This document shows, piece after piece, positions 39,136-46,794 of a stretch of 64,000 nt of DNA (position 1 is its first letter; each line of letters starts with the position of its first letter). The stretch comes from Streptomyces sp. NBC_01463 (lineage in GTDB: Bacteria > Actinomycetota > Actinomycetes > Streptomycetales > Streptomycetaceae), in NCBI GenBank assembly GCA_036227345.1, contig CP109468.1, forward strand, positions 6,262,001 through 6,326,000. Reading direction: 5' to 3'. Under the pieces are notes generated by a model. It was given only the letters and a program-made list of their open reading frames with translations, searched no databases and was not told the origin of the DNA. Made by a program: the position numbers and the translations under genes.

Positions 39136-39561
39136 TCAGTACCAGTTGTTGGCCTGCCAGAACGACCAGGCGCCGCACGGGCTGCCGTAGCGGGAGTTCA
39201 TGTAGTCCATGCCCCACTTGATCTGGGTGCTGGGGTTGGTCTGCCAGTCGGAGCCGGCGGACGCCATCTTCGAACCGGGCAGGGCCTGGACCAGGCCGTA
39301 GGCGCCGGAGGAGGCGTTGGTCGCGCTCGGGTTCCAGCCGCTCTCGTGGCTGACGATGTTGCTGAAGCACTGGAACTGCGCGTCGTCACCGATCATCGAC
39401 TTCGCCGTGTCCTGCGCACTCGCGGCAGCGGACGTCGGCGCGGCGGTGGTGGCCGCCATGGCCGGGGAGACGCCCAGAGCCACACCGGAGGCACCCAGCA
39501 GCACTGCTGCACCGGCGACGGCGGACTTGCGACGGGCGAGGATGTTACGGGCGAACGACAC
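39136..39561 (-). CDS. Secreted lytic transglycosylase-like protein
   Basis: A 141-aa protein with a signal peptide (to about residue 36, ASGVALGVSPAMA) and a small SLT-type domain. Catalytic Glu73 lies in FSNIVSHESGWNPSATN, followed by SSGAYGLVQALPGSKM and NPSTQIKWGMDYMNSRYGSPCGAWSFWQANNWY. Two Cys (65 and 129) may pair. This short SLT type, ending with W-x-x-N-x-W-Y, is common in Streptomyces and would cleave peptidoglycan during growth. The GTG at 39561 is chosen to give MSFARNILARR; the Shine-Dalgarno is weak. Confidence 0.85.
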   Translation of the reverse strand: MSFARNILARRKSAVAGAAVLLGASGVALGVSPAMAATTAAPTSAAASAQDTAKSMIGDDAQFQCFSNIVSHESGWNPSATNASSGAYGLVQALPGSKMASAGSDWQTNPSTQIKWGMDYMNSRYGSPCGAWSFWQANNWY

Positions 39562-39865
39562 AGGGAACCTAACGTCGGGTACGGGGGAGTCGCGTGCTCC
39601 GGTCCGAATCCTGCGTGGACCGTTGCGCGTTGACCGCTGTCCGTTCCGGTGGACGCTGCGGTGCTCGGCGACATCTCCATGGTTAGCCGCGCCGTTCAAC
39701 GACCGCAACGACCCCCGGTACGACCCCGCCTCGCACCCCGGGCCGAAGGTCCCGAACCGCCCCAAACCGCGTCATAGCAGGTCGGAGGGTGCGCAACGGG
39801 GTCCAGTGGACGCTCCTCGCGCCTCCTAACCCGCTTCGTACAGGACCAAGGTCCTGTGGGTGCCC
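39562..39865. other. Long leader/promoter region of the transglycosylase gene
   Basis: About 304 bp without a gene. It contains an 18-bp perfect palindrome at 39840-39857 and probably the transglycosylase promoter. Related cell-wall hydrolase genes in Streptomyces often carry a c-di-AMP riboswitch; I see only a partial resemblance (CCCGACGTTAG-like end near the start) and do not call one. Confidence 0.5.
39840..39857. promoter_or_regulatory. 18-bp perfect palindrome
   Basis: ACAGGACC-AA-GGTCCTGT: the arms 39840-39847 and 39850-39857 are exact complements around AA. It lies 9 bases after the S-component stop and 280 bases before the transglycosylase start. Either an operator or a short terminator stem. 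Confidence 0.45.
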
Positions 39866-40693
39866 TCACTCCTCCGGGACCCCGAATGTGACCTGGGCCT
39901 CGAAGGCCGCGCGGCGGGTGGCCCGGCGCAGCGCCTTCAGCAGCGCGGTTCCGACGGTGAGTGTCAGGACGACGGTGAGCACGGCACGCCCCAGGTCCCA
40001 GCCCAGCGAGGTGGCCGTGCAGTACGCCAGGAACCGCACCAGGTTGTCGGCCAGCGCGTCACCGGGATGGAAGGAGATGCCCGAGCCGAGCCCCGGCACG
40101 ATCGTCCACCCGTACAGATTCATGACCGTCCCGTACGCGAACGACGCCACCGCTCCGTACGCGGCGAGCATCAGCAGCTCGGCGCGCCCGCGCAGCCGGT
40201 CCGGCCCCGGCAGCATCCCGGCGCCCATGGCGAACCAGCCCATGGACAGCATCTGGAACGGCATCCACGGACCCACTCCGCCGGTCAGCAGCGCGGAGGC
40301 GAACATCGTCACCGAGCCGAGCACGAAGCCGAAGCCCGGCCCCAGCACCCGCCCGCTCAGCACCATCAGGAAGAACATCGGCTCAAGCCCCGCCGTGCCC
40401 GCCCCCAGCGGCCGCAGCGCGGCACCGACCGCGGCCAGCACCCCCAGCATCGCCACCGCCTTCGCGTCGAGCCCGGCGTCCGCGATCATCGCGACCACCA
40501 CCCCGACCAGCAGCGGCAGCAGCGCGGCGAACAGCCACGGCGCGTCCTGCGAATGCGCGAGCCCGGAGTCCGGGCCGGCCAGCAGCGGCCAGCCGAAGGC
40601 GGCCACCCCGATCGCGCTGATCAGCACCAGCGCGGCGACGGCCCGCGGCCCGAGCCGCACCGGCCGCGCGCCCCGGACCTTCGTGCCGGTCAT
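39866..40693 (-). CDS. ECF transporter S component, probable cobalamin-specific
   Basis: A 275-aa membrane protein with about six to seven TM helices (AAFGWPLLAG, ALLPLLVGVVVAMIADAGLD, MFFLMVLSGRVLGPGFGFVLGSVTMFASALLTGGVGPWMPFQMLSMGWF). The G-P-G-F-G-F-x-L-G-S and GGVGPW-P-F-Q-M blocks are usual in ECF substrate-binding subunits. It is the last gene of the riboswitch-controlled operon and overlaps the ATPase gene by ATGA. Specificity for a corrinoid is inferred from the riboswitch and from CbrT-type S components known in other bacteria. Confidence 0.85.
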   Translation of the reverse strand: MTGTKVRGARPVRLGPRAVAALVLISAIGVAAFGWPLLAGPDSGLAHSQDAPWLFAALLPLLVGVVVAMIADAGLDAKAVAMLGVLAAVGAALRPLGAGTAGLEPMFFLMVLSGRVLGPGFGFVLGSVTMFASALLTGGVGPWMPFQMLSMGWFAMGAGMLPGPDRLRGRAELLMLAAYGAVASFAYGTVMNLYGWTIVPGLGSGISFHPGDALADNLVRFLAYCTATSLGWDLGRAVLTVVLTLTVGTALLKALRRATRRAAFEAQVTFGVPEE

Positions 40694-42411
40694 GCGTCAC
40701 CGTCCAGCGCCGCCCGGACCTGGGACACGGTGAGCCACTCCTGCGGGGCGAGGATCTTGGCGATCTGCGGGGCGAACGCGGGGGACGACACCACGACCTC
40801 CGGCGTCGGACCGTCCGCCACCACCTCTCCGTCGGCGAGGATCACCACCCGGTGGGCCAGCTCGGCGGCCAGCTCCACGTCATGGGTGGCCAGCACGATC
40901 GCATGGCCCTCGGCCGCCAGCGTGCGCAGCACCGCGACGAGCCGGGCCTTCGCCGCGTAGTCCAGACCGCGGGTCGGCTCGTCCAGGAGCAGCAGCGGGG
41001 GCCGGGCGGTCAGCACGAGCGCGAGCGCCAGCGCGAGCCGCTGGCCCTCGGACAGATCCCGGGGGTGCGTGGCGTCCGCCACACCCGGCAGCAGCTCCGA
41101 GACCAGGGCCCGGCAGCTGCCCGGCGCGGCGCCCGCGTCGGCGTCGGCCGCCGCGCACTCGGCGGCGACGGTGTCCGCGTACAGTAGATCGCGCGGCTCC
41201 TGCGGTACGAGCCCGACGCGGCGCACCATCTCGTGCGGCGGCGTGCGGTGCGGGGTGCGGCCGCCGACGAGGACGGTGCCGGAGGTGGGCTCGACCATGC
41301 CGACGAGGGCGCCGAGCAGGGTGGACTTGCCCGCGCCGTTGCGCCCCATCAGGGCGACGGTCTCGCCCGGGGCGACGGTCAGGGTCACCCGGCGCAGCGC
41401 CTCGACACGGCCGCGCCGCACCGCGAGACGCTCCACGCGGTTGGTGGCGTCGGCGTCCGGCCCGGGGGCCTCCTGCTGCGGGGCGCGGGCGAACAGCCGG
41501 GCCAGGGCGGACCGCCGCGGCGCGGGGTGCGGAGCGGGCACCTGCGGGGGAAGCCGCCGGGCTTCGCCGCTGCCGCCGACCGGTCCGGGCGTCACGCCCG
41601 CCAGCCGCTCCCGCATCCCCTCGGCCCGGCGCCGGGCGTCGCGGACCGACAACGGCAGCGGATCCCAGCCGGCCGTCCGCCCCAGCGCCACCACCGGTGG
41701 ATGCACCGGCGAGAGCGCCATCACATCGGCGGGCGCCCCCATCACCGGGGCGGCGCCCCGGGACGGCAGCAGGACGACCTGGTCCGCGTACTGCACCACC
41801 CGCTCCAGCCGGTGCTCCGCCATCAGGACCGTCGTCCCCAGGTCGTGGACGAGCCGCTGGAGGACCGCGAGAACCTCCTCGGCCGCCGCCGGGTCCAGCG
41901 CGGACGTCGGCTCGTCCAGCACGAGGACCCGGGGATGCGGGGTCAGGACGGAACCGATCGCGACCCGCTGCTGCTGGCCTCCGGAGAGCGTGGCGATCGG
42001 CCGGTCGCGCAGCGTGGCGAGGCCCAGGAGATCGAGGGTCTCCTCGACCCGCCGCCGCATCACGTCCGGGGCGAGGCCCAGCGACTCCATGCCGTACGCC
42101 AGCTCGTCCTCGACCGTGTCGGTCACGAAGTGGGAGAGCGGGTCCTGGCCCACCGTGCCGACCAGATCGGCCAGCTCACGGGGCTTGTGGGTGCGGGTGT
42201 CGCGCCCGTCGACGGTGACCCGCCCGGTCAGCCGGCCACCGGTGAAGTGCGGTACGAGCCCCGACACGGCACCCAGCAGAGTCGACTTGCCGACCCCCGA
42301 AGGCCCGACGAGGAGCACCAGCTCACCCTCCGGAACGGTCAGATCGACCCCCGACAGGGTCGGGTGCCCGACCCCCTCGTACTGCACCGAAACATCGTCG
42401 AACCGGATCAC
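40690..42411 (-). CDS. ecfA: ECF transporter ATPase, two ATP-binding domains fused
   Basis: A 573-aa protein carrying two CbiO-type cassettes. Domain 1 (about 1-230): Walker A GPSGVGKST, signature LSGGQQQR, Walker B VLVLDEPTSALD. Domain 2 (about 335-560): GRNGAGKST, LSEGQRLALALALVL (variant signature), LLLLDEPTRGLD. A Pro-rich linker joins them. The fusion supplies both ATPases of an ECF module. The GTG start overlaps the EcfT stop (GTGA) with GAGGAG upstream, and the end overlaps the S component. Confidence 0.93.
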   Translation of the reverse strand: MIRFDDVSVQYEGVGHPTLSGVDLTVPEGELVLLVGPSGVGKSTLLGAVSGLVPHFTGGRLTGRVTVDGRDTRTHKPRELADLVGTVGQDPLSHFVTDTVEDELAYGMESLGLAPDVMRRRVEETLDLLGLATLRDRPIATLSGGQQQRVAIGSVLTPHPRVLVLDEPTSALDPAAAEEVLAVLQRLVHDLGTTVLMAEHRLERVVQYADQVVLLPSRGAAPVMGAPADVMALSPVHPPVVALGRTAGWDPLPLSVRDARRRAEGMRERLAGVTPGPVGGSGEARRLPPQVPAPHPAPRRSALARLFARAPQQEAPGPDADATNRVERLAVRRGRVEALRRVTLTVAPGETVALMGRNGAGKSTLLGALVGMVEPTSGTVLVGGRTPHRTPPHEMVRRVGLVPQEPRDLLYADTVAAECAAADADAGAAPGSCRALVSELLPGVADATHPRDLSEGQRLALALALVLTARPPLLLLDEPTRGLDYAAKARLVAVLRTLAAEGHAIVLATHDVELAAELAHRVVILADGEVVADGPTPEVVVSSPAFAPQIAKILAPQEWLTVSQVRAALDGDA

Positions 42412-43598
42412 ACCTGCTCCTCGAAGCCTGTGGGGGAAGGCGCGGCGGGCGAGCCTGTGGGGGACGGCGGGACGGGCGCGACGACCGCCGGCAGCAGTCC
42501 GGTCAGCACCGCGGCGGCGGGCCACAGCGGCAGCACGGGCGCGGTCAGCGGTACGACACCGGGGTGCAGCGCCGCCGGATCCGCGCTGCCCGCCCAGATC
42601 ATCGCCACCGCGACCGCCGCACCGGACCCCGCGACCAGCCAGGCCCTCGCGCCCCACCGGTCGGGCCGGTAGCGGGTCCGCACAGACCGCGCCCCGCCGA
42701 GCCGCAGCCCGGCCATCGCGGCGACGAGCCCGACGGCCAGCAGCGGCAGCCCGTACACCGCACCCTGCGCGGCGAGCAGCCCGTACGTACCGGCGCAGAC
42801 CCCCAGCAGCCCGCCGAGCGTGAGGACGTTCGTGGTGTGCCGGACGGCGGCCGGCACGTGGGCGGTACGCCCGTAACCGCGCGCGTCCATCGACGCCGCC
42901 ACCGCGACCGACCGCTCCAGCGCGCCCTCCAGCACCGGCAGCCCGATCTGGAGCACGGCCCGCACCCCGCCGGTCGGCCGGCCGCGCAGCCGCCGGGCGG
43001 TCCGCAGCCGCACCACGTCGGCGACCATGTTCGGCGCGAACGTCATCGCGACGACGACGGCCACCCCGGCCTCGTACAGCGCACCGGGCAGCGACTTCAA
43101 CAGCCGGGCCGGATTGGCCAGCGAGTTCGCGGCGCCGACACAGATCAGCAGCGCGGCCAGCTTCGCCCCGTCGTACAGCGCGAACAGCAGTTGCTCGGCG
43201 GTCACCCGGCCGCCGATCCGCACGCCCTTCGCCCACTCGGGCAGCGGCACCTCGGGCAGCGTGAACACGACATGCGTCCCCGGGATCGGGGACCCGAGGA
43301 AGACGGAGAAGAGCAGCCGCACCCCGATGACGAACAGCCCGATCTTGATGAACGCCCCGTACGAACGGGCCCACGGAGCGTCGGTGCGCCGCGCGGCCAC
43401 GACGTACCCGGCCACGCCGACCAGCAGGCCGAGCAGCAGCGGGTTGGTGGTCCGGGACGCGGCGGTGGCGAGCCCGAGGGCCCACAGCCACCAGGCCCCG
43501 GCGGGCAGCGCGTTGCTCCGGGTGGCGACGGGCGCGCGCCAGGCCCGGAACGGGCCGGCCGCGGCGCCCGTGCCGCCGGCCGCCGTCCGCCCGGTCAT
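42408..43598 (-). CDS. ecfT: ECF transporter transmembrane component (EcfT/CbiQ)
   Basis: A 396-aa membrane protein with EcfT/CbiQ features: LPAGAWWLWALGLATAASRTTNPLLLG at the start and the coupling-helix signature ASMDARGYGRT (A-R-G motif) that docks onto the ATPases. The C-terminal 130 aa add extra hydrophobic segments and a Pro-rich tail, making it longer than a typical EcfT of about 265 aa. The ATG overlaps the stop of the upstream surface-protein gene. It belongs to the B12 operon. Confidence 0.9.
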   Translation of the reverse strand: MTGRTAAGGTGAAAGPFRAWRAPVATRSNALPAGAWWLWALGLATAASRTTNPLLLGLLVGVAGYVVAARRTDAPWARSYGAFIKIGLFVIGVRLLFSVFLGSPIPGTHVVFTLPEVPLPEWAKGVRIGGRVTAEQLLFALYDGAKLAALLICVGAANSLANPARLLKSLPGALYEAGVAVVVAMTFAPNMVADVVRLRTARRLRGRPTGGVRAVLQIGLPVLEGALERSVAVAASMDARGYGRTAHVPAAVRHTTNVLTLGGLLGVCAGTYGLLAAQGAVYGLPLLAVGLVAAMAGLRLGGARSVRTRYRPDRWGARAWLVAGSGAAVAVAMIWAGSADPAALHPGVVPLTAPVLPLWPAAAVLTGLLPAVVAPVPPSPTGSPAAPSPTGFEEQV

Positions 43599-44296
43599 CC
43601 GCGGCGGCGGCGGGCCTGCGCGACTGCGGCGATGCCGAGGAGCAGGACGGCGCCGATCCCGACGAGAACCCCGGCGGACGGCCCGCCGCCGCCGTCGGAC
43701 CCGCTGTCGCCGGCGGGAGCAGAGGCCTTCTTGCTACTGCCCCCGGTACTGGCCCCGTCCCCGGACACCTGCTCACCGCAGCCTGAGGCCGGGTAGCCGG
43801 AGATCGCGCAGAGCAGCGCGTCACTGCCGTAGCGCAGCGGCTTGGCCACCGAGGCGAGGGCGTCCGCGCTGCTCGCGTCCTCGGGAACCTGCGCGCACAC
43901 GCTCCGCGGCGCGGGCGGAGTCTCCCCGTCCGGGGCGTCGGCGGCCGTACCGGGGTCGATGACGAGCGCGACCCGCTTGGTGCCGTCCTTGGCCGGGGTG
44001 TCCGCGCAGATCTTCGCGAAGTCGGGGGCGCGGCGCGGCTTGGAGGCGTCCTGCGAGTCCGCGCTCACGGAGAACCGGAAGCCCTGCACCGAACCGTCGT
44101 CCGGACGCACCAGCGACGGCCCCTGGGTGGCGTAGGCCCACCCGGTGCCGGAGCCCTCCCAGAACGACCAGTAGCGGTAGCCCGCTGCCTGGGCCGTGCC
44201 CGCACCGAGCACGGCCAGGAAGGCGCCCAGGAGCAGGACCACCAGCGGCGCGGCGGCACGTCCGGCGCGCCGCGGGGGCTGCCGGGTGGCGCTCAC
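43595..44296 (-). CDS. SCO2322-like surface-anchored Cys protein of the B12 operon
   Basis: A 233-aa protein with a signal peptide (about 14-37), a folded domain (about 38-175) and a C-terminal TM (about 206-226) with an RRRRG tail, thus displayed outside the membrane. The domain opens AGYRYWSFWEGSGTGWAYA and has four Cys (97, 134, 163, 173). The Y-W-x-F-W-x-G-x-G opening and the SSADALASVAKPL helix are reminiscent of the DUF4430/beta-domain of transcobalamins, though I cannot verify this. GTG start coupled to the upstream stop. Likely partner of the toroid protein in corrinoid capture. Confidence 0.8.
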   Translation of the reverse strand: MSATRQPPRRAGRAAAPLVVLLLGAFLAVLGAGTAQAAGYRYWSFWEGSGTGWAYATQGPSLVRPDDGSVQGFRFSVSADSQDASKPRRAPDFAKICADTPAKDGTKRVALVIDPGTAADAPDGETPPAPRSVCAQVPEDASSADALASVAKPLRYGSDALLCAISGYPASGCGEQVSGDGASTGGSSKKASAPAGDSGSDGGGGPSAGVLVGIGAVLLLGIAAVAQARRRRG

Positions 44297-45555
44297 AGCT
44301 GCTGGTTCTTGCGGCGGCCGCTGATCAGGAACCCGGCGCCGGCGCCGACGGCGAGGCCGATCCCGACGAACCACCAGACACCGCCGATCCCGTCCCCGTC
44401 GCCGCTGTCCTTCTTCTCCTCCTCCTTGGTCTCGGACGCCGTCGGCTTCTTGACCGCGGCGGGCTCGGGCCCGGTCGCGTTCAGCTGGGCGACGAGGTCG
44501 GCGCCGCCGAAGTCGTGGACGTCGGTGCCGGTGGCGTGGGCGGCCATGACGAGCTGCGCGTACGCGGCGGGGCCGTTCTCCTTCGCCCAGGCAGCGGAGT
44601 TCTTCTCCAGCCACTTCACGGAGGCGGCGGCCTTGTCCTTGTGGCCGGAGGCGGACAGCGCGACGACCGCGTCGGCGGTGTTGCCGAAGTCGGGCTGCGG
44701 GGCGCTGTCCTCGGCGCCGGGCATCGGCGGGGAGTCGAGGTGACCGGACTCGGCGAGGGCGCCGGCGAGGTAGTAGGCACCGTTCTGGGCGGCCTGCTCG
44801 GGCTTGGCCACGGCGCCCTTGGTGCAGGTGGGGTCCTTGACGGCGGCGTTGTTCCCGACGACGAGCCCCTTGCCGAGCGAGCCGAGGACCGCGGCCGCGG
44901 TGGCGTCACCGTTGGCGACGAGCTTGCCTGCCTTGTCGGGCTGGTAGGCGAACGCGCCGCCGTCCTTGCCGCCGCAGGGGATGGCGAAGGTGAGCAGGGC
45001 GTCGTACGGCGTCTTGCCGCCGTCCGTCGTCACATCGCCGAGCTTCTCCCCGGCCCGGGCGAGGGCGCCGATCACGATCGAGGTGGAGTTCGCGTCGCTC
45101 GGGCCGCCGGCGGTGTAACCCCAGCCGCCGTCCTTGTTCTGTACGGACTTCAGCCAGGACACCCCGTTGTGCACGAGGTCCTCGTGCCCGCGGACCTCGT
45201 GCAGCGCCTGTACGGCGGCCGCGGTCGCATTGGTGTCGATCATGGTCTTGTCGTCGCAGGCCACGGACGGGTCCGGACGGTACGCGGGGAACGCCCCGCT
45301 GTCGCACTGCTGCCCGATCAGCCAGTCGACGGCCTTGGCGGCGGGCGTGACGCCCACGGCGCGCTGCGAGGCGAAGGCCAGCGACTGCCGCCAGACCCCG
45401 TCGTACGTCGGGTCCTTCGTGCCGTACAGCCCCGAGGGCAGGGCCACGGACGGCGAGGGGGAGGGGGACGGCGCGGCGACTGCGGCCGGGGCTGCGGCCG
45501 CACAGAGCACGGTGGCGGTGGCGGCGAGCGCGGCTGCGCTGCGGCGTACGGTCAT
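44293..45555 (-). CDS. Surface-anchored alpha/alpha-toroid protein, transcobalamin-like
   Basis: A 420-aa protein: signal peptide (1 to about 28), Pro/Ser linker, an alpha-helical toroid (about 50-365) of prenyltransferase/squalene-oxidase-type repeats (VDWLIGQQCDSGAFPAY, VSWLKSVQNKDGGWGYTAGG, KDGGAFAYQ, VKWLEKNSAAWAKENG), a Lys/Glu linker and a C-terminal TM (about 392-412) with RRKNQQL tail. Cys 84, 100, 194 and 244 may form disulfides. Mammalian intrinsic factor and transcobalamin bind B12 with such a toroid. As first gene after a cobalamin riboswitch and upstream of an ECF importer it is a strong candidate extracellular B12 binder. ATG 45555 with AGGAGAGG. Confidence 0.88.
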   Translation of the reverse strand: MTVRRSAAALAATATVLCAAAAPAAVAAPSPSPSPSVALPSGLYGTKDPTYDGVWRQSLAFASQRAVGVTPAAKAVDWLIGQQCDSGAFPAYRPDPSVACDDKTMIDTNATAAAVQALHEVRGHEDLVHNGVSWLKSVQNKDGGWGYTAGGPSDANSTSIVIGALARAGEKLGDVTTDGGKTPYDALLTFAIPCGGKDGGAFAYQPDKAGKLVANGDATAAAVLGSLGKGLVVGNNAAVKDPTCTKGAVAKPEQAAQNGAYYLAGALAESGHLDSPPMPGAEDSAPQPDFGNTADAVVALSASGHKDKAAASVKWLEKNSAAWAKENGPAAYAQLVMAAHATGTDVHDFGGADLVAQLNATGPEPAAVKKPTASETKEEEKKDSGDGDGIGGVWWFVGIGLAVGAGAGFLISGRRKNQQL

Positions 45556-45649
45556 GGCGGGCGGGGCCTCTCCTGGGGGAACCGGGCACAGGCACACACA
45601 GGCACCCAGCTCCGGCTCCGCATACCTCGACGGTGCCGGCCGCCGGGGG
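45556..45649 (-). promoter_or_regulatory. Expression platform between riboswitch and first gene
   Basis: On the minus strand, GTGCCG and CGGCAC (about 45630-45660) can pair around a C/G-rich loop, and the Shine-Dalgarno region follows about 13 bases before the ATG. No U-tract is seen, so control is more likely at translation initiation; this is inference. Confidence 0.45.
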
Positions 45650-45785
45650 TTCCCGACGGCACGAGCCGGTCACAACTCGGACAGGGCATTCCGACTTCCG
45701 CGTGGACGCGGTCACGGCTGCGAGCCAGCGCCGGATTCGCACCGGCTTCCCCCTGAACGGGCATGATGACGACCTGCCCACTCTA
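45650..45785 (-). ncRNA. Cobalamin riboswitch
   Basis: Reading the minus strand from about 45785, the aptamer core is unmistakable: GGGGGAAGCCGGTGCGAATC then CGGCGCTGGCTCGCAGCCGT and GACCGCG (45757 down to 45706), followed by GCGGAAGTCGGAATGCCC and a B12-box-like 3' part GTTGTGACCGGCTCGTGCC (about 45675-45657). It precedes the transcobalamin-like gene by about 100 bases and so should repress the whole ECF operon when cobalamin is plentiful. End points are approximate. Confidence 0.93.
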
Positions 45786-45951
45786 CCGGGAGGCCGCTGA
45801 GGCCCCCGGCCCGGGCGCCGGAGGCGGGGGCGGCGCGGCGACGGAGGCTGCCCGCCCGGAACGCCCGGAATAGTCCATGGCCCTTTCGAACAGTGATCGT
45901 TAAACTGCAACCGGCTTATGAATCAGGCGGGTTGAGGGGCGGCGGACGGGC

Positions 45952-46794
45952 ATGACGACAGGTACCGGGGGATTCCCCCCGCCCCCTTCCCGCCCGCCGG
46001 GCACCCCGCCGCCCCATCCCCCCGTGCCACCGGCGCCACCGCGCACGGATCCGCCCAGGTGGGCGTGGTGGGTCGGCGGTATCGCGATCCCCATGATCGG
46101 CATCGTGGCGACGGTGATCTTCAGCAACAACCCCGACCCCGCCCCCGCAGCGTCCCCGGCCCCCGCCTCCAGCAGCCCGCGGTCCGAGCCCTCGGCCCCG
46201 TCCAGCCCGGACCACGCCTCGGCGGAGACCGAATCACCCACCGCGACCCCGAAGCCTTCGGCATCCCCGAGCCCGGGCGACACGGCCCCCGCGGACACCG
46301 ACCTCACGGCACCGGCCGGGTACGGGGACGCGGTCAAGACGATGTGGGGCCTGGCCCCCGCCCCCTGCAACCAGGACGAACAGCAGCTGGTGGACCTCGA
46401 CGACGGCATGAGCCGGGTGGAAGCCCTCGTCAAGGGCGACCTGATCGGCGTGGCCAAGGACCCCGGCGGGGCAGAACTCCTCTACTGGCCCGACTCCTGC
46501 AACGACCGCAACAACTACCGGCTGCGCGCACTGCCCAACACCCGCGTGGGCCTCCTGCGGGACGGACTCCCGAAGTCCTTCGAGTCCTGCGAGGCGGCGT
46601 CGAGGACCGGCTTCGGACCCCTGGCCCTGCTCGACAGCTACGACCGCGAGGGGCGCGGCTTCGTCGAGGGCGCGGCGCTGTGCTCCGTGACGGACCAGGG
46701 CGCGGTCTCCATGGCGTTGATCGAGAACATCGACGACTCGTCGAACGAGGCGTCGGTGAGCGGCACGCTGTACGTGTGGCCGAAGAAGTCCTGA
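45952..46794 (+). CDS. Proline-rich single-TM protein, unknown function
   Basis: A 280-aa protein: a Pro-rich cytosolic N-terminus (about 1-35), one TM (WAWWVGGIAIPMIGIVATVIF, about 37-57), a Pro/Ser/Ala stalk (about 60-120), then an extracellular domain of about 160 aa containing PCNQDEQQLVDLDDGMSRVEALVKGD, WPDSCNDRNNYRLRALPN and SFESCEAASRTGFG with several Cys. I do not recognise the domain. Similar architecture is common among actinobacterial envelope proteins. It is divergent from the B12 operon; GAGGGG lies upstream of the ATG. Confidence 0.75.
   Translation: MTTGTGGFPPPPSRPPGTPPPHPPVPPAPPRTDPPRWAWWVGGIAIPMIGIVATVIFSNNPDPAPAASPAPASSSPRSEPSAPSSPDHASAETESPTATPKPSASPSPGDTAPADTDLTAPAGYGDAVKTMWGLAPAPCNQDEQQLVDLDDGMSRVEALVKGDLIGVAKDPGGAELLYWPDSCNDRNNYRLRALPNTRVGLLRDGLPKSFESCEAASRTGFGPLALLDSYDREGRGFVEGAALCSVTDQGAVSMALIENIDDSSNEASVSGTLYVWPKKS

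Follow-up and report, generated by a model that had tools for sequence, protein, structure and literature searches.

A 64-kb stretch of DNA (the window) from the 9.07-Mb genome of Streptomyces sp. NBC_01463 carries on its minus strand a cobalamin riboswitch, followed in order by genes for a toroid protein, a small cysteine-containing protein (hereafter SML), an EcfT-type coupling protein, a fused double ATPase, and the S component of an energy-coupling factor (ECF) importer (Table 1). A preliminary description, made from the sequence alone, had proposed this order, overlaps of about 4 bases, and a complete gene set for B12 capture and ECF import; all five genes were found as described, and every one of the four junctions among them is a 4-base overlap. 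We consider it quite likely that the operon is a dedicated corrinoid (vitamin B12) importer, in which a split, membrane-anchored, transcobalamin-like pair of proteins would feed a CbrT-type ECF importer.

Table 1. Positions in the window of the operon genes, the riboswitch aptamer and the SML core
Feature	Position	Strand	Remarks
Cobalamin riboswitch aptamer RF00174	45666..45801	-	cmscan 37.6 bits, cut-off 31.5, E 6.1e-06
Toroid protein, SCO2321 family (P0001)	44293..45555	-	Signal-like hydrophobic segment at the N terminus, alpha/alpha toroid, hydrophobic segment and basic tail at the C terminus
SML, small Cys protein, SCO2322 family (P0002; PF28005 by protein search)	43595..44296	-	GTG start
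SML core, residues 39-175	43772..44182	-	N half (YRYW...GFRF) and C half (RVALVID...CG); hhalign
EcfT-type transmembrane coupling protein	42408..43598	-	PF02361 CbiQ at 18.5 bits, under the 25-bit cut-off; conserved position
Fused EcfA-EcfA' double ATPase	40690..42411	-	GTG start; ABC_tran in two stretches, E 5e-57
S component of ECF importer, CbrT-like	39866..40693	-	PF12822 at 24.5 bits, under the 30.7-bit cut-off

In NCBIfam, the toroid protein falls into SCO2321_fam (602 bits; cut-off 300) and SML into SCO2322_fam (NF040672; 231 bits; cut-off 85), two families to which no function is given there. The double ATPase scored 294 and 290 bits against the ECF ATPase models of the same collection, missing both cut-offs (330 and 315); its two ATPase domains, EcfT, and the S component make up a complete ECF set within one operon. 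A scan of positions 39500-46200 yielded no promoters and a single terminator-like site, on the opposite strand, vs. 1.0 expected. Directly 3' of the operon (39136-39765, minus strand), a small protein is encoded that by eye resembles a secreted lytic transglycosylase.

The RF00174 covariance search suggested in the preliminary description returned a match above the gathering cut-off (45801-45666, minus strand), which is the sole Rfam match above gathering score across the 64 kb, and its 3' end sits 110 bases upstream of the first start codon. The riboswitch had been called strong: its presence was borne out (37.6 bits vs. 31.5), its strength was not, as other matches of the model in this genome reach 93.8 bits. 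In the folded leader, the stretch just ahead of the ribosome site pairs with an upstream stretch, a pairing that does not by itself establish an expression platform.

The conservation of the operon was surveyed with the SCO2322_fam profile in 296 genomes drawn from the class, 125 of which had a match at E ≤ 0.001 and 103 a match above the cut-off. The preliminary description had suggested a check of conservation across Streptomyces; of the 28 genomes of the genus surveyed, 27 are among those above the cut-off. Profiles grown from the window proteins were then applied to 103 loci, i.e., the window plus a single region from every further genome above the cut-off (102). Of these loci, 95 extend at least 5 kb past the SML start, and in 89 of them SML is followed by co-oriented genes for EcfT, the ATPase, and the S component. 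The six exceptions are of two kinds: three (L094, L099, and L135) carry riboswitch, toroid, and SML with no ECF genes in the region, a capture pair standing by itself, and three (L126, L133, and L134) hold SCO2322-family members with neither riboswitch nor ECF genes, perhaps paralogues that serve another purpose. Of the 92 loci whose ECF set is complete, 56 have a toroid gene ahead of SML and 36 do not, three of the latter being cut by contig ends. The toroid-less pattern includes a family of small genomes (f25; 1.3-2.2 Mb), in which all 21 loci keep the riboswitch, SML, and the ECF genes without the toroid. Inspection by eye of the toroid-less loci revealed, among the rows listed, no other exported protein of that kind in its place, and no toroid-SML fusion was seen in a by-eye check of the locus gene listing. 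Eight loci (L037, L039, L040, L041, L045, L047, L126, and L138) encode, about 1-3 kb from the operon, a second, divergently placed protein with 130-149 bits to the toroid profile, which looks like a different alpha/alpha toroid enzyme. With roughly 8,000 candidates scored for each family, 2,659 proteins fell into the SCO2321 family and 3,402 into the SCO2322 family (E ≤ 1e-5).

For the leaders, we built our own covariance model (R1) from 26 operon leaders and searched it (E ≤ 0.01) in 100 loci (the window and L037-L135, with L136-L138 left out; 1.3 Mb). Since the window leader is itself a seed, its match (77.5 bits at 45758-45671) is one by construction. Overall, 90 of the 100 loci were matched, each once and always upstream on the operon strand, 98-359 bases ahead of the profile start of the first gene; among the non-seed loci the count was 64 of 74, and in family f25 all 21 were matched. 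Loci with a complete ECF set had a match in 83 of 90 cases, and the seven misses comprise five whose upstream region is cut by, or close to, a contig end (L069, L093, L103, L110, and L130) and two real ones (L047 and L057). Where the ECF set was not full, the riboswitch was present in 7 of 10 loci, and L045, L073, L076, and L121 of these end at a contig end downstream. When 33 loci were scanned with Rfam itself, a cobalamin-type match above the cut-off was found just ahead of the operon in 15 and none there in 18; L068 has an additional cobalamin-type match located elsewhere than in the operon leader. Two patterns for a consensus motif of the leaders together recovered it in 91 of the 103 upstream pieces. 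Singly, they matched 82 and 85 pieces; on the reverse complements the counts fell to 2 and 0, and in five shuffling rounds to 0-1 and 0 of 103. The same gene order and the riboswitch turn up again in other members of the class, so the operon is not a chance arrangement; it is a real, widespread, and coherent system.

The host genome has six RF00174 matches. One is that of the operon; four others (L139, L141, L142, and L143) stand ahead of metE, of class I ribonucleotide reductase genes, of cobD, which cobN follows, and of a Peripla_BP_2 gene followed by FecCD; the sixth, a 91-bit riboswitch (L140, G000:C1:977274-977397, minus strand), has a downstream gene without confident assignment. Judging from these targets, the strain is probably a B12 producer with a second, BtuFCD-like candidate importer, so that the operon is not the only candidate B12 importer of the host. 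The operon shares its presumed cargo, B12, with BtuCDF, the FecCD-type ATP-binding cassette importer. The five-gene operon belongs to a different transporter class, with neither FecCD nor Peripla_BP_2 among the best 25 families of each protein.

A possible link to animal B12 carriers emerged from other Actinomycetota, where the SML slot can be filled by DUF4430 (PF14478), described in the consulted part of the source as the C-terminal domain of transcobalamins (PMC4350170). Among 346 genomes of the phylum, 63 have the domain; a search of the Streptomyces sp. NBC_01463 genome found none. A relative of the operon's EcfT (E ≤ 4e-4) was detected in 21 of 30 DUF4430 loci of about 3 kb each, 11 of which were examined as larger regions. 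With filters switched off, EcfT was found in 8 and the toroid in 6 of these 11 regions (7 and 4 with default filters), and a cobalamin-type riboswitch above the cut-off lies upstream on the operon strand in 6, with scores of up to 115.7 bits. The gene slots are the same as in the Streptomyces operon, and the S components are homologous. DUF4430 comes first in four regions (L271, L272, L277, and L278), with EcfT, ATPase, S component, and toroid after it in that order; L269 and, less clearly, L270 begin with a long protein that has a faint toroid match, in the place of the Streptomyces toroid. These toroid-like stretches appeared without filters (E 4.6e-9 and 1.3e-8) and were missed with default ones; with Pfam, the toroid match of L269 stayed below the cut-off and L270 had none. 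In five of the six riboswitch-bearing loci a gene of about 2.4-2.8 kb intervenes between riboswitch and DUF4430, encoding a beta-propeller protein in L271. L275 and L279 contain very long open frames (1,722 and 1,538 residues), with one and two DUF4430 matches respectively, adjoining the ECF operon.

The S components of these DUF4430 operons also connect that of the Streptomyces operon to a protein of proven cargo. Searched against the PDB with E allowed up to 10, profile A3, made from 23 actinomycete S components, retrieved nothing, i.e., direct similarity to CbrT was not detected. The actinomycete profile does find the intermediates in all 11 DUF4430 loci (E 1e-16 to 7e-26), and a bridging profile (A7), made of 11 of the A3 sequences, the window's included, and 8 from DUF4430 operons, matches 6FNP chain A (CbrT) at E 1.8e-18; a single one of the eight finds this chain at 2.3e-11. 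The relationship to the B12 S component CbrT is thus real at the level of sequence profiles, but runs through intermediates. The structure is that of ECF-CbrT of Lactobacillus delbrueckii, an importer of cobalamin and cobinamide, and CbrT is predicted, in the sections consulted, to be one of eight S components on a single shared ECF module (Santos et al. 2018, PMC5997447), whereas the Streptomyces operon has its own EcfT, fused double ATPase, and two surface proteins. The corrinoid cargo, originally deduced from the riboswitch alone, thereby gains further support from the CbrT link, from the upstream riboswitch in 90 of 100 loci, and from transcobalamin-type DUF4430 proteins in the SML slot of homologous operons, and we regard import of a corrinoid as very likely on these comparisons.

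The same genes could be read as an importer of cobalt or another metal for B12 synthesis, in the manner of CbiMNQO, with the surface proteins serving as metal or cell-wall proteins. Many cobalt transporters are also controlled by cobalamin riboswitches, as far as the consulted part of the source reports (PMC3766115), EcfT resembles CbiQ, and the host carries cobD and cobN. The S component, however, matches PF12822 weakly and the CbiM model not at all, so that the CbiM/CbiN signature is missing, and the broader S-component profile finds CbrT. Furthermore, the operon is kept in the small genomes of family f25, which by their size may be freshwater acI, a guess; if they are acI, which lack B12 synthesis, cobalt alone would be of little use to them. 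On the missing CbiM match, the bridge to CbrT, and the retention in f25, we rejected a cobalt importer, which we rate as very improbable.

For the toroid protein, an enzymatic role had to be weighed, since its Pfam and PDB matches are squalene-hopene cyclases and similar enzymes: it could be a secreted terpene/squalene-type cyclase or a glycan-active toroid enzyme that is merely co-transcribed with a B12 importer, next to an unrelated small protein. The squalene-hopene cyclase model gave, however, 24.7 bits, far below its cut-off of 431.1. The string D.DD, presumably the catalytic motif of squalene-type cyclases, was absent from P0001 and from 60 of the 64 toroid rows, the window's among them. 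A terpene cyclase was rejected on these grounds and on two more: accidental co-transcription fits poorly with the three loci that keep the toroid-SML pair behind a riboswitch without ECF genes, and with toroids beside DUF4430 in 6 of 11 related operons; we hold this explanation to be improbable. Transcobalamin was not among the toroid matches listed, which excludes nothing. The operon does encode an alpha/alpha toroid protein as a candidate partner for SML.

SML consists of a signal-like segment, a core of about 135 residues, and a C-terminal hydrophobic anchor, and its cysteines 97, 134, 163, and 173, invariant across 29 sequences, suggest the disulphides of an exported protein. Its AlphaFold2 model (75 sequences) reached a predicted template-modelling score of 0.62 and a mean predicted local distance difference test of 77.2, with higher values in the core. 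Conventional searches were silent on its origin: the DUF4430 model did not match P0002 even with E allowed up to 1, no Pfam family fitted, DUF4430 was absent from the families listed for the 29 members, the SML profile gave 17 PDB matches with E of 0.5 and above, and the model returned no significant PDB match with Foldseek and VIA, an absence that excludes nothing. Profile-profile comparison (hhalign) against 27 DUF4430 domains was more informative. The whole core of the full SML set scored 31.9 (P 3.6e-5) through its C half, and P values of the matches through this half range from 5.5e-6 to 3.6e-5; none of 200 column shuffles did as well (maximum 18.5), and control profiles of EcfT, the S component, and the toroid stayed at 8.3, 11.9, and 16.2. 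In a set of 76 non-Streptomyces SML sequences, run with one reference sequence (L086), the unswapped core scored 33.3 vs. 10.9 for reversed controls, and the C half alone 32.0, reached by none of 200 shuffles (maximum 18.3). The similarity of the SML C half to DUF4430 is therefore well supported by these alignments.

It is the first half of DUF4430 with which the C half of SML aligns, and the N half fits the second half of DUF4430 weakly. When the halves, whose limits and cut point were picked after looking at two alignments by eye, were swapped, the alignment extended through to the DUF4430 end. The full set then scored 32.9 over 78 columns, 1.0 more than unswapped, and the non-Streptomyces set 39.1 over 76 columns (P 1.4e-6), 5.8 more. 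Shuffling only the N half in the latter set, 7 of 200 replicates reached the score, 8 the span, and 1 both; in the full set, 45 of 200 reached 32.9, some scoring well above it, and 6 reached the span. Alone, the N half is not significantly similar to DUF4430 (P 0.053 and 0.062; 18 of 200 shuffles as good). A circular permutation of SML is the simplest reading of the remaining match and, from the alignments, about an even bet. We rejected it as a proven event because N-half shuffles so often attain the full-set score.

SML could instead share no more than a gene slot with the transcobalamin beta domain, being a corrinoid-binding or scaffold fold of separate ancestry, which would be compatible with B12 import. 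Its lack of Pfam and PDB fold matches, the weak N half, and the small full-set gain upon swapping all point this way; the C half and whole-core scores, far above their 200 shuffles each, and the non-Streptomyces swap, matched in score and span by a single N-half shuffle and set against low reversed controls, point the other way, and we consider separate origins rather unlikely. A transcobalamin-like capture pair is likely on the comparisons made here.

The operon, read as a corrinoid importer, would work as follows. At low intracellular B12, the leader riboswitch would permit expression of the five genes, and the toroid protein and SML would be exported and held in the membrane by their C-terminal segments. 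There, they may take the parts of the toroid and the beta domain of transcobalamin, the human B12 carrier, with the corrinoid between them at the surface, and pass it to the CbrT-like S component, after which the EcfT-EcfAA' module would drive it through the membrane with ATP. A more specific and tentative version, to which we give slightly less than even chances, is that SCO2322 proteins are circularly permuted transcobalamin beta domains, which with SCO2321 would form a split, membrane-anchored transcobalamin closing over the corrinoid and handing it to a CbrT-type S component, and that small-genome actinobacteria lost the toroid and kept the permuted half. In that case, the permuted half would be the piece that docks on the transporter.

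Related operons have been predicted before, in part among proteins of the SLBB clade, which we take to be Pfam DUF4430. Transcobalamin-type SLBB proteins, often with a toroid, were reported to lie generally in CbiO/CbiQ-like operons, and B12 scavenging was proposed for them (Burroughs et al. 2007, PMC1796856; sections consulted). They resemble the Streptomyces operon in that genes for an exported toroid and for a beta-grasp protein, here a putative one, adjoin genes of ECF type. The toroid and beta domain are commonly one chain in that account and two proteins here, and the place of DUF4430 is taken by SCO2322, which is missed by the DUF4430 model. The word Streptomyces is absent from the main text of that paper. 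Behind cobalamin/adenosylcobalamin riboswitches of four acI genomes, Kang et al. 2017 (PMC5301498) predicted an ECF importer of cobalamin; in the sections consulted, the four sequenced strains are given as lacking a B12 pathway, and no surface protein is mentioned with the module. The acI module, similar in its ECF genes behind such riboswitches, is probably the toroid-less form of the operon seen here in small genomes. For Streptomyces, the consulted part of a reannotation of S. lividans gives cobalamin riboswitches only before cbiM and cobD, and our literature search found no publication treating SCO2321-SCO2325 as an importer; among the papers searched, these names turned up in one, which concerns an unrelated peptide. 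The preliminary description had called an ECF route of this kind little described, which is only partly right, as the acI and SLBB/DUF4430-type operons had both been predicted to import B12. New with respect to the sources consulted are the membership of the Streptomyces operon in this kind of system, the CbrT link, the equivalence of the SCO2322 and DUF4430 slots, and the split and perhaps permuted architecture.

To our knowledge, ECF importers are held to work without an external binding protein. If our reading is true, the operon would encode an ECF importer with a two-piece external binding protein, raising the question of how such an importer takes its ligand over from surface proteins. 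It would also give a function to two families named only by S. coelicolor locus tags (SCO2321 and SCO2322), connect animal B12 carriers with a two-protein capture device of bacteria, and bear on the vitamin supply of small-genome freshwater actinobacteria.

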